Shown: piece by piece, positions 9,009-54,471 of the stretch
How positions within the stretch are numbered: the stretch's first letter is position 1
Layout: each line of letters starts with the position of its first letter
From: Chloroflexota bacterium
Lineage (GTDB): Bacteria > Chloroflexota > Anaerolineae > Aggregatilineales > Phototrophicaceae
Direction of reading: 5' to 3'
DNA: 64,000 nucleotides
Assembly (NCBI GenBank): GCA_016223085.1
Contig: JACRPS010000003.1
Span: 1,298,274 to 1,362,273 of the forward strand
Position numbers and translations under genes: made by a program
Notes under the pieces: generated by a model
What the model saw: the letters and a program-made list of their open reading frames with translations, nothing else
The model's database searches: none
Told to the model about the DNA's origin: nothing

Positions 9009-9095
9009 CTTAGTGTCTATCCATAAACCCTTCGTAGGGGCACGGCATGCCGTGCCCCTACCGACAAATAAAAGAGGTTTACGGATAGGTTCTTA
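9009..9095. mobile_element. 87-bp MITE-like palindromic repeat, copy 1
   Basis: This 87-bp unit occurs again at 29044-29130 with one difference (G to A in the left arm of the central hairpin). The outer arms CTATCCATAAACC (9017-9029) and GGTTTACGGATAG (9076-9088) are inverted with one mismatch. The centre is a perfect GGGGCACGGCA/TGCCGTGCCCC palindrome. It carries no coding capacity. It lies inside an operon between the binding-protein gene and the permeases. Confidence 0.8.
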
Positions 9096-15127: not shown

Positions 15128-15305
15128 GCTGCTTCACCGGGGAAACCCGGGCGGACATTAAGCAGATTAATCCGGCGGAAAAGACAACCCGAACCTGCCC
15201 GATAGCCGGCTGTTGAAGCAAGAATATACCTCACCTTGTTCGGTGCGCCACAGCCTTGTATTTAAGAGTACAATCTAAATACATCATTTGTTTCGGAGGT
15301 TTGAC

Positions 15306-18237
15306 GTGAACGTTCTTCCGCTTACCCCCGCTACTCCCTTTGAGTCGCTGACTGAGCGCGAACGGGACATTCTGGCGCTGATCGCCGAGGGGCTGTCCGA
15401 CCGCGAAATCGCCGACCGCCTCGTCGTCGCTTACACCACCGTCAAGTGGTACAATCGCCAGATTTTCAACAAACTCGGCGTGGACAACCGCAAGGACGCC
15501 ATCCAGCGCGGACGCGAACTGCGCCTGCTCGAACCGACGGAAGCAGCGGATTTACCCCGGCACAACCTGCCCGCGCCGGTGAAGCCGTTCATCGGACGCG
15601 AACGCGAATTGAGCGATTTGGCGCGGGTGCTGCGCGAGGAACGTGCCCGGCTCGTCACCATCTTCGCGCCGGGTGGCCGGGTGGCATGGGCAAAACCCGC
15701 CTGGCGCTGGCGCTGGCCGAAGCGTGCGTAGGGACACGATATACCGTGTCCCAGCAGCCACCCCTTTTCCCCGATGGCGTATACTTCGTGCCGTTAGCAC
15801 CCCTCACCGCGCCAGATGGCATCATTCCCGCGATTGCCGACGCCACCGGCTTCCAGTTCGCACCGGACAGCCGGACGCCAACGCAGCAGCTTTTTGACTT
15901 CCTGCGGAACAAACGCCTGCTGCTGGTGCTGGACAATTTTGAACACCTGCTGGACGATGCGCCGCTGGTGATGGACATGCTGCACGCCGCGCCGGGGGTG
16001 ACGGCGCTGGTCACATCCCGCGAACGGCTCAATGTGACTGGCGAAAGTGTCTACGGGTTGGGCGGCATGGCGTATCCCGAACAGGCGGGAGACGATATAC
16101 TGAGCTATAGCGCGGTGCGGCTGTTCGTTCAGAGCGCCCGCCGTGCTCGCGCTGATTTTGCGCCGGAAGCCGTGCCGGACGGCGTGGTGCAAATCTGCCG
16201 ATTAGCGCAGGGCATGCCGCTGGCGATTGAGTTAGCGGCGGCGTGGGTGGGGGCGCTGACGCCAGCAGAGATTGCGGACGAAATCACGCGCAGCAGTCCA
16301 CATGGGCGCGGTTGACGGCTGATGAGCAAACCGTATTCCGCAACTTGTCCGTGTTTCGCGGCGGGTGCACGCGGGAAGCGGCGCAGGCGGTGACAGGGGC
16401 GGATGTGATAACGCTGACGGCGCTGGTGAACAAGGCGCTGCTGCGGTGTGACCCGGTAAACGGACGCTACGAAGTCCATGAACTGCTGCGCCAGTACGCC
16501 GAGCAAAAGCTGACGCCGGACGAAAAGCAGGCAACGCGGGACGCGCACAGCAGTTATTACCTGAACCTGCTGCACCAGCGTCAGCGTGACCTGGAAGGCG
16601 GCCGGCAGCTTGAAGCCTTGCGCGAGATCGGAAGCGATATTGAAAACGTGCGCGACAGTCTGTTTCTTTATCACTATATCAGCAAACAGTGGGTACAGGG
16701 GGGCGTTCTTTTCGACCAGGCCATTCGAGTGCTTCAGACTATCCCATCCCGTCCAGAACATGAGATGCTGCGAACTCCGCTGCTGATCCGTCAGGCGTTC
16801 CTACGCAGTCAACATGCACAGTACCAGGCTGTCAAAACGATGGTTGAGGCGTGCCAGGCCGGCTTGCAACCGTCGAGCGATCCGCGCGAGTGGGCGCTGC
16901 TGGCAATGACACGGGCAAACATGGAAGGAAATCGGCAGAAGCAGCAGGAAGAGCGACCATTCTGTGAGCAGGCCCTCATGTGGTACCGCCAGGCTGAGGA
17001 CTGTTGGGGCATTTCGTTGGCTCTGCTTGGCCTGGCCGCCAGTTACCTTCAGTGGTCAGATAATCAAACCCATCCTGATGTCGGGCAGGCTAAAAGCCTC
17101 CTGCGGGAAGCACTAACCATCCAGGAAGTACAGGGCGATGTTTTCCACATGTCGCACACTTACCGGATGCTGGCGATAATCGCCAGGATGCAAAGGGATT
17201 ATGACGAAGCGGAACGCCTCACTCGAAGGGTGATGGGCTATTTACAGCAGTTGGGTATCACCAATATGGCGGGAGATTTAAACAATCTGGGAACTATTGC
17301 GATGGACCGGGGGCAATTTGCTCAGGCGCGCCAATATTTTGAAGAATGCCGTACCATTGACCACGAACAAGGGGTGATACCAGGTTTGCTGGTTGTCCTG
17401 GGAAATTTGGCTCAGAGTGCATTTTTGCAGGGCGATTTTACATCTGCGCGGTTATACGCGCAGCAAGCCCAGACGCTCTCAGAGCAGGCCGACCCACACT
17501 GCTACTTGTTAGGTTGGATTGCGTGGGCAGAGGGTGAATACGATCAGGCGGTAGCTTTCTTCAATATTCTTGATAAGTCGATTGACGAATCGGACAACTG
17601 GCGATATGCGCCGGCAGTGTCGCAAATCGCTCTGATTCAAGGGCGAATGCAGGAAGCTCGCCAGCGACTTGAAGCCAGCCTTCCACTCGCCGAGGATCGA
17701 GGCGATTCGCTAGTGGCTGTGCAATGCCGGATAGAGATGGGCAAGCTGGCCTATGTGGAAGGCGATTACACCCGTGCCAGAGAATGCCTGCAAACGGCCC
17801 TGTCCTTTTTGCAGAGCAGCCGCGCCCAGGCTGTGCTTTTCGAGGCTGACGAGAAGACAACCACCCTGGATGCGCTCGTGGCGCTGGCCGATGTAGAACG
17901 CGCCGCAAAAGATTATGAACGTGCCCATCAGCATCTGCTCGATGCGCTGCATATAACAGATATATTCCCGGCTGTTCCGCTGATGCTGGCAATACTGGCA
18001 GCGATGGCCGATCTGCTGGACGCTCAATCCCAACCCGAACGCGCGACTGAACTGGCCGCGTTTATCCGTGACAATCCAAAAGCCTTCGCCGTTGACCGGA
18101 CACGCGCGGCGGCGCTGCTCGATGTGCTACGGGAGCAGATGCCTCCTGAGAGCTTCACGGCGGCGTGTGAACGCGGCAGGGCGCTTGATCTGGAAACGGT
18201 GGTCAGACGTAGTTTGGATGAGCCTTATCCCGGATAA
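15306..18237 (+). pseudogene. Broken LuxR-HTH / NB-ARC-like ATPase / TPR transcriptional regulator
   Basis: The gene starts at a GTG 6 nt after GGAGG and encodes an N-terminal LuxR-type HTH (SLTERERDILALIAEGLSDR, then TVKWYNRQIFNKLGVDNRKD). The ATPase follows: KPFIGRERELSDL, then a Walker A region disrupted at 15668-15686 by an 8-bp tandem duplication (CCGGGTGG twice). Removing one copy restores APGGMGKTRLAL. The second frame runs through LLLVLDNFEHLLD (Walker B) and ALVTSRERL to a stop at 16315. The third frame resumes at STWARLTADEQTVF and encodes about 600 residues of TPR repeats to 18237. About 20-25 residues between ITRS and STWARL appear deleted. Confidence 0.8.
15731..15752. repeat. 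Dispersed palindrome inside the ATPase coding sequence
   Basis: GGGACACG and CGTGTCCC flank a 6-nt loop, the same core as the intergenic copies at 40972 and 49608. Here it adds a peptide (VGTRYTVSQ) between the ATPase helix LALALAEA and LFPDGVYFVPL, where homologous proteins are continuous. Confidence 0.75.
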
Positions 18238-27933: not shown

Positions 27934-27967
27934 TTGCAGGGGTGGGTATATAAACCCGCCCCTGCAA
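27934..27967. repeat. Intergenic palindrome
   Basis: Arms of 14 bp (TTGCAGGGGTGGGT and its complement with one G-T pair) flank a 6-nt loop between the GH31 and isomerase genes. It may be a dispersed-palindrome copy acting as an intercistronic hairpin. Confidence 0.65.
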
Positions 27968-29014: not shown

Positions 29015-29042
29015 GTAGGGACGAGGCATGCCTCGTCCCTAC
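29015..29042. repeat. Perfect 28-bp dispersed palindrome
   Basis: The 14-bp arm GTAGGGACGAGGCA and its exact complement lie back to back. The GTAGGG...CCCTAC ends match other copies. It is immediately followed by copy 2 of the 87-bp repeat. Confidence 0.8.
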
Positions 29043-29043
29043 A

Positions 29044-29130
29044 CTTAGTGTCTATCCATAAACCCTTCGTAAGGGCACGGCATGCCGTGCCCCTACCGAC
29101 AAATAAAAGAGGTTTACGGATAGGTTCTTA
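29044..29130. mobile_element. 87-bp MITE-like palindromic repeat, copy 2
   Basis: It is identical to the unit at 9009-9095 except for one base in the central hairpin. It lies between the isomerase gene and the beta-propeller gene, and ends 26 bp before the latter's ATG. Confidence 0.8.
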
Positions 29131-40971: not shown

Positions 40972-40999
40972 GTAGGGACACGATAGATCGTGTCCCTAC
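40972..40999. repeat. Dispersed palindrome
   Basis: GTAGGGACACGAT and its exact complement are separated by 2 nt. The sequence is nearly the same as the copy at 49608. It lies directly upstream of the GDSL-like gene. Confidence 0.8.
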
Positions 41000-41275
41000 T
41001 CGCAAAACCGCCCCTCATTGTAAGCGCCGTGCTGGACGATTGCAACGCCGGGGCGTTGAGCGATTTGTGATCCGTCATGCGCCGATTCGTGATAAATGTC
41101 ACTCTCGCTTCGGCGCAATTCCCCGTAAAATGCAATTTTAACCGCCGGTAATCATAAGATTCGTTGATGTAAGCGCGATATGTGGTCATGCTCAATCCCG
41201 GTTTACGCAGCGTGGTTATCGTGAAATTGACCACAAGAGTAGATATTGGTAGACCTTTCAGGCACACTGAAACAG

Positions 41276-41302
41276 TAGGGGCGACCTGATAGGTCGCCCC
41301 TA
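41276..41302. repeat. Dispersed palindrome
   Basis: TAGGGGCGACCT and its exact complement with a 3-nt loop, in the gene-free stretch before the permease gene. Confidence 0.75.
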
Positions 41303-41331
41303 GTATCAGGTTAAGCGATTTTTGACCCCAC

Positions 41332-49579: not shown

Positions 49580-49607
49580 GACAACCTCGTTGGTATAAAT
49601 CGTTGGT

Positions 49608-49635
49608 GTAGGGACACGATATATCGTGTCCCTAC
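49608..49635. repeat. Perfect 28-bp dispersed palindrome
   Basis: The 14-bp arm GTAGGGACACGATA and its exact complement lie back to back between the DsbA-like and rsgA genes, which diverge. Confidence 0.85.
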
Positions 49636-49758
49636 AGTTTACCATAACTTAAAATGCAGCCAGCACAAAAAAGAAAAAAGTCAGTACAATATAGATGCCG
49701 TTCGGCGTCTTTATATTACGCCAAAAGTTGTAAGGATGAGCCTGTTGGGAGGCAGCCT

Positions 49759-52540: not shown

Positions 52541-52569
52541 GTAGAGGCTTGTCGGCGACAAGCCCCTAC
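52541..52569. repeat. Dispersed palindrome between convergent genes
   Basis: GTAGAGGCTTGTCG and its complement (one mismatch, 1-nt centre) lie between the GNAT and YihY/BrkB genes. Confidence 0.7.
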
Positions 52570-54442: not shown

Positions 54443-54471
54443 GTAGGGACATGGCAGTGCCATGTCCCTAC
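54443..54471. repeat. Dispersed palindrome
   Basis: GTAGGGACATGGCA and its exact complement around a single central G, between the divergent cytochrome c and aminotransferase genes. It ends 22 bp before the aminotransferase ATG. Confidence 0.8.

Follow-up and report, generated by a model that had tools for sequence, protein, structure and literature searches.

Short palindromes that share GTAGGG/CCCTAC ends are found at the same sites in two related genomes, the genome under study (G000) and its nearest relative (G060), at many sites with different stems, and as far as sequence comparison can tell the sites look older than the stems they carry. Our preferred reading, which we put forward tentatively and with somewhat less than even confidence, is that resident palindromes may be replaced in place as units, by a mechanism that we infer, and that the palindrome at positions 15728-15755 of the window (the whole 64-kb stretch of DNA that was analysed) would be one such REP-like site.

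Within the window, GGGACACGATATACCGTGTCCC forms a palindrome at 15731-15752, and 100 dinucleotide-preserving shuffles produced 0 matches to it. The bases GTA precede it, so that GTAG is read from 15728; at the right end, the palindrome of 15728-15755 has AGC and not TAC, the left GTAG having been kept and the right CTAC lost. The GTAGGG/CCCTAC ends are common to window copies with different stems, and the copies are the following:

9034 to 9061, no strand: family copy, type B, GTAGGGGCACGGCATGCCGTGCCCCTAC
15728 to 15755, no strand: the palindrome under study, GTAGGGACACGATATACCGTGTCCC followed by AGC, stem type A, read in frame as VGTRYTVSQ
29015 to 29042, no strand: family copy, type G, GTAGGGACGAGGCATGCCTCGTCCCTAC
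29069 to 29096, no strand: family copy, type B, one end base altered
40972 to 40999, no strand: family copy, type A, GTAGGGACACGATAGATCGTGTCCCTAC, outside the in-gene class
41275 to 41303, no strand: family copy, type H, one end base altered
49607 to 49636, no strand: perfect family copy, type A, TGTAGGGACACGATATATCGTGTCCCTACA, outside the in-gene class, overlapping the final 39 nt of a mechanical 304-aa ORF
52541 to 52569, no strand: family copy, type J, one end base altered
54443 to 54471, no strand: family copy, type D, GTAGGGACATGGCAGTGCCATGTCCCTAC

The sequence-only reading had stated that the palindrome has the same core as intergenic copies. The core does recur, at 40972-40999 and 49607-49636, but these two copies are at most putatively intergenic, because each overlaps a mechanical ORF of at least 60 residues. 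Elsewhere in the window, an imperfect palindrome at 27934-27967 (TTGCAGGGGTGGGTATA/TAAACCCGCCCCTGCAA) is perhaps a type-F copy that has decayed.

The product of the host gene combines a LuxR-type HTH (GerE), an AAA-type ATPase part and TPR repeats. As had been proposed, the palindrome lies inside coding sequence, in the open frame of the P-loop ATPase part (GGMGKTRLALALAEACVGTRYTVSQQPPLFPDGVYF), although the gene itself is not intact. Compared with its paralogue L009, the gene is broken by an 8-bp duplication, which puts the HTH and the ATPase in separate frames, and by a loss of 67 nt:

15288 to 15671, + strand: 5' part of the host gene, LuxR-type HTH (GerE) and start of the ATPase region, in the frame of the ORF 15288-15731
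15670 to 15685, + strand: 8-bp tandem duplication, CGGGTGGC twice, directly before the P-loop, shifting the frame relative to L009
15680 to 16309, + strand: ATPase frame (GGMGKT...) that holds the palindrome peptide, with the ORF end at 16315
16294/16295, + strand: junction lacking the 67 nt that L009 has, by comparison with L009
16243 to 18237, + strand: 3' part of the host gene, end of the ATPase region and TPR repeats, in another frame

L009, whose ATPase part is 85% identical, has an open frame of 853 codons and gives Pfam AAA matches over the cut-offs, those in the ATPase frame of the window being under them. At the same codon, and in frame, it has all 28 bp of the palindrome, which is read there as FVGTRYIVSLP. 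The statement that the element can be tolerated in frame therefore stands for the intact L009 and falls for the window copy, which says nothing on tolerance because its gene is broken; as proof of tolerance, that copy is ruled out by the 8-bp duplication and the 67-nt loss.

Besides L009, we fetched 34 homologous loci (5 paralogues and 29 from relatives, many further matches being left out), and the linker could be read in 30 of them. Neither the palindrome nor VGTRY.VS was present in any of the 30, and in 19 the linker was 7 residues shorter than that of L009, which agrees with the earlier claim that the palindrome adds a peptide where homologues have none. This agreement is qualified by 4 linkers (L020, L022, L024, L032) that are longer than that of L009 and unrelated in sequence, so loop length varies anyway. 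The same peptide encoded without the palindrome was likewise seen in 0 of the 30 linkers. The further claim, that the insertion is direct evidence that the element moves, did not survive the comparison: short flanking duplications were sought and none was found beyond the permutation level, and the net gain amounts to 21 nt instead of 28. Since both paralogues share the insert, the insertion predates the gene duplication, and the site at 15728-15755 records one old event; the original insertion at the ATPase linker cannot be reconstructed from the sequences.

The family is abundant in G000, a genome of the Chloroflexota that stands near Aggregatilineales. The pattern GTAGGG(N14-18)CCCTAC occurs in 738 exact copies genome-wide, versus 1 for the reversed pattern, and the perfect 8-base arm of the 15731-15752 palindrome in 249 copies, versus 0. 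On contig C12, of which 1.46 Mb was examined, a detector allowing one end mismatch returned 288 rows, 276 of them 28-30 bp long; 286 were used, and these fall into about a dozen stem types. With two end mismatches allowed, 331 copies were detected in C12 and 9 on the reversed sequence. A search that assumed no ends found 251 C12 palindromes with 11-base arms, 151 of them bearing both ends, while order-2 random sequence gave 75; 148 of the 251 start with (T/C)GTAGGG or GTAGGG inside the paired arm. The two arms of a copy are concordant in type in 234 of 286 cases, discordant in 15 and untyped in 37, and we rejected arm hybrids as intermediates on these counts. No fused palindromes occurred among the 10 gaps shorter than 60 bp (of 285 gaps).

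Flanks are unique in 246 of the 286 C12 copies. In these 246, target-site duplication at k = 1-10 stayed within the permutation range, k = 1 coming close to the top of it (55 observed, maximum 56); the outward +1 base was a purine (A or G) in 75% and T in 7%, and the outward bases of the two sides were alike less than expected (53 matches vs 79). This flank-base asymmetry hints at a hidden orientation or a target preference. Some copies sit in larger contexts, C12 having 14 shared flank 12-mers. Type-B copies often lie within a longer element with ends CTATCCATAAACC/GGTTTACGGATAG (L005:1400-1500, L006:1900-1980), one of which adjoins each of two short IS200-like genes, and type-C copies often have the common flanks GAAAAATCTATG / ATTCTATGAATC (tttc...attc; e.g. 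C12:171396, 439923, 1033102), which points to a further composite element of greater length. A second small repeat, resembling ACTCAGTACTTAGTACT and with a peptide like NSELGTRNSELSTQHSAL, is found both in non-coding DNA and in open frames (L007 around 1440-1530; translations of C12:802499-805483 and 325765-327783).

By a codon-score test, 29 of 376 copies in 1.66 Mb are in frame within protein genes, in 19 genes; an earlier pass had found no coding signal on either side of 206 of the 286 C12 copies. Phase 0 (GTA GGG, VG[TA]R..V.L) accounts for 26 of the 29 in-frame copies and phase 1 for 3, and the third phase hits TAG whenever GTAG is intact. The two-sided binomial P of this bias is 1.5e-5, a rough value, phases 0 and 1 being taken as equally likely, and selection on the peptide would be its simplest reason. 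From their translations, we take the hosts to include methionyl-tRNA synthetase, primase, a fused glycyl-tRNA synthetase, asparagine synthetase, a P-type ATPase, an acyl-CoA ligase (two copies), biotin carboxylase, an ABC ATPase and membrane proteins. One membrane-protein gene, C12:802499-805483 (a 995-aa ORF), holds five in-frame palindromes of several stem types; no copies with the family ends were found in its G060 orthologue.

Evidence for our reading comes from the comparison with G060, the nearest relative among 17 genomes of the same genus (86% across 125 residues of MetRS); the closest named MetRS is from a MAG of the Aggregatilineales, an order within Anaerolineae, Chloroflexota. Sixty-one G060 sites were tried, of which 36 aligned with G000 on both sides and 25 did not, two neighbouring copies at L242 being counted as two sites. 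At 26 of the 36 aligned sites, G000 has a palindrome at the same place (or, after dropping 11 loci fetched via G000 copies, at 15 of 25, two of the remaining sites being on contig C290, which was chosen by synteny), and the same aligned stretches of G000, comprising 10,437 bases, contain 3 other palindromes. The other 10 sites are without a palindrome in the aligned G000 stretch, and some of these align poorly. Where both genomes have a palindrome, the nearest stem type is shared at 8 of 26 sites, compared with 3.0 by random pairing (P = 0.0046), and core-arm identity is at most 0.5 in 7, 0.5-0.75 in 6 and above 0.76 in 13, mean flank identity at aligned sites being 0.77. Mean self-complementarity is 0.94 and 0.93 in the two genomes, while a simulated 13% drift gives 0.76. 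The stem repertoires also differ, type A making up 57 of 286 copies in G000 and 1 of 61 in G060, and type E 14 of 286 and 19 of 61. The comparison anchored in G000 is weaker support: 55 sites were attempted and 36 aligned, and in G060, 15 of the 36 were significantly palindromic, namely 8 of the 20 gene sites and 7 of the 16 other sites.

Single genes illustrate the pattern. At the same codon of MetRS, G000 has GTAGGGACACGG.. and G060 has GTAGGGACGAGG.., whereas in 80 named relatives the loop differs in length and holds a palindrome in L310 only, with no clean empty site among them. The AsnB stem is of type C in G000 and type E in G060, that of the P-type ATPase of type A and type E, and that of a membrane protein of type A in G000 with a GCTTACGG stem in G060; GlyQS has three variants, one each in G000, G060 and G045. 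At several altered gene sites, G060 has a segment of unchanged length whose peptide resembles that of the palindrome, such as IGARHAVPLQ or AAVRQAMPLP; as decayed palindromes these segments have no site-by-site statistical support, 12 of the 20 gene sites not being significantly palindromic. Clean empty sites and intermediates were not seen in the one genome pair compared in depth.

Candidates for a mobilizing enzyme were sought with transposase models. A PF01797 search of G000 returned two short IS200-like genes and one long weak match, and gave no short match in G060. The two short Y1 genes of G000 are IS200-like (93.6 and 97.2 bits, cut-off 55) and were rejected as the mover, since G060 lacks them and yet has 173 copies of the palindrome; short Y1 genes were also rejected on a second count, G064 and G061 having several of them and yet only 23 and 16 copies. 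Copy number varies sharply over the 98 genomes of the taxonomic family (280 in G021, 148 in G022, 117 in G005, and 10 or fewer in many).

A REP transposase model gave further weak matches in both G000 and G060. In G060, a 234-codon open gene matches NF047646 (REP transposase) at 57.6 bits, under the cut-off of 80, and relatives of its protein, resembling REP-associated tyrosine transposases (RAYTs), are present in 14 of the 17 genomes of the genus, again scoring under the curated cut-off; a search of solved structures with the RAYT-like protein gave no match. Family palindromes flank the RAYT-like gene on both sides in G000, G045 and G065, in the last with identical stems:

L403:1197-1840 (G000): RAYT-like gene with palindromes around and inside
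L411:1125-1878 (G045): RAYT-like gene with palindromes around and inside
L415:1207-1830 (G065): RAYT-like gene with palindromes around and inside
L414:1130-1483: RAYT-like gene with a palindrome on one side and inside

The inner loop of the gene holds a near-perfect palindrome in 10 of the 22 loci aligned over both halves, with stems that differ between genomes. Taken together, the flanking and inner-loop palindromes and the matches to the REP model make a RAYT-like origin likely. Both RAYT-like copies of G000 carry an in-frame stop, and the number of RAYT-like genes does not track the number of palindromes across genomes. Stems near one RAYT-like gene tend to match each other. Separately, a conserved protein (L390:1390-1926 in G000, L391:1390-1959 in G060) matches a REP transposase model weakly, at 41.3 and 34.4 bits (cut-off 80), and the family palindrome is absent from these two fetched loci.

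If palindromes are turned over in place, the founding of a site would be rare, probably through a RAYT-like activity, and founded sites would then persist. A resident palindrome would be overwritten whole by one of the stem types that abound in its genome, through a copying or hairpin-exchange step that draws on another locus via the common GTAGGG/CCCTAC ends. Within genes, frame-keeping replacements alone would survive, mostly in the phase VG(T/A)R..V.L, and the window copy would be one of these sites, its gene having been duplicated and this duplicate having decayed. Several results count against turnover, namely the excess of same-type pairs over random (8 vs 3.0), the 13 of 26 cores above 0.76, the weaker reverse comparison, the 25 of 61 sites that failed to align together with the poor alignment of some palindrome-less ones, the absence of intermediates in the single pair compared in depth, and the stops in the RAYT-like genes of G000. 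A more general proposal, possible although we lean against it, is that a REP-like family can persist by stem exchange at fixed sites, intergenic and in frame in essential genes, without new insertion; under such exchange the loops of MetRS, asparagine synthetase and the RAYT-like transposase would have been rewritten by the repeat.

We favour turnover in place, with RAYT-mediated reinsertion close behind. According to the latter, RAYT-like transposases would repeatedly excise and insert palindromes at preferred sites, so that sites are emptied and refilled and the stems of relatives are independent insertions. We regard this as a real possibility, though one to which we would commit less readily: the palindromes around RAYT-like genes, the different palindromes in the inner loop of that gene in several genomes, the bias of the outward base with its avoidance of likeness between the two sides, and the 10 of 36 G060 sites without a palindrome in the aligned G000 stretch all speak for it, whereas target duplication is absent, no clean empty site was seen, and palindrome-less gene sites in G060 often keep a look-alike of the same length, even if 12 of 20 are not significantly palindromic.

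The high self-complementarity (0.93-0.94, where simulated drift gives 0.76) could also be maintained with no copying between loci, by selection on the hairpin or by quasi-palindrome correction, in which one arm mutates and the other arm follows. The sites with core identity of 0.5-0.75 (6 of 26), and the 13 with higher values, fit such paired change, but 7 of the 26 have a core identity of at most 0.5, and the nearest type on each side is frequent in that genome, so that we consider paired change unlikely. Improbable, too, is an ordinary REP-like element that was inserted once, the shared sites reflecting ancestry and the stem differences alignment or assembly artefacts. The insert common to both paralogues suits that account, and in-gene GTAG palindromes are already known (PMC3733652); nevertheless, the differing stems are bounded by aligned flanks with a mean identity of 0.77, and some are in open genes.

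Palindromes within genes are usually taken as records of insertion. In G000 and G060, however, one codon position can have different yet near-perfect palindromes, and a site can therefore be older than the sequence it now holds. This would, if confirmed, be a way, open to testing, for short repeats to evolve in concert while staying at their old places, and protein loops would receive ready-made in-frame peptides that are swapped wholesale. Higgins, McLaren and Newbury reportedly proposed gene conversion between REPs in the title of a 1988 article, and because coding flanks align reliably, that old idea can be tested directly against its alternative, RAYT-mediated reinsertion.

No paper on the G000 family was among the literature matches listed, and several known systems resemble it in part. 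A classical MITE would show target-site duplication, which the 246 unique-flank copies do not, and a parent with matching ends; some type-B copies do lie in the CTATCCATAAACC/GGTTTACGGATAG element, but 246 of 286 copies have unique flanks. Rickettsia palindromic elements are in-frame palindromes within coding genes (as cited in PMC3733652), and the G000 family shares in-frame coding insertion with them (29 copies in 19 genes, and L009), although they belong to another phylum and the likeness is drawn from their description. REPINs (Bertels and Rainey 2011, PMC3116915) are abundant short palindromic populations associated with RAYTs, for which excision reads are described; they are inverted REP doublets, whereas the G000 family consists of single symmetric palindromes.

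The closest likeness is to the GTAG REPs of Di Nocera et al. 2013 (PMC3733652), which are short abundant GTAG palindromes with several stem types per genome, Chloroflexi included; they lie mostly between genes, with some in ORFs including those of tRNA synthetases and repair genes, and they flank RAYT genes (REPtrons). The G000 family agrees in being a 20-40 bp multi-copy palindrome (276 of 288 at 28-30 bp; 738 copies) and mostly extragenic (29 of 376 in frame in genes), and its possible link to RAYTs consists of RAYT-like genes below the cut-off (57.6 bits vs 80), flanked in three loci. The tag of a GTAG REP, however, is unpaired and at one end, while the GTAG of the G000 family pairs with CTAC at the other end, as was seen in the search without assumed ends (148 of 251), although the two-ended detector may miss one-sided copies; for this reason the family, although it works like these REPs, is not a strict member of them. 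The phenomenon has a published precedent in recB, where two Xanthomonas species have different REPs at roughly one position (PMC3733652), and in the G000 family same-site pairs with different stems extend to many sites between two genomes. The 'orthoswitch' of Nunvar et al. 2013 (PMC3686654) likewise describes different REP classes flanking orthologous, syntenic RAYT genes, with new REP variants that may partly replace old ones. That description concerns REPs around RAYT genes, to which the G000 comparison adds ordinary intergenic and coding sites.
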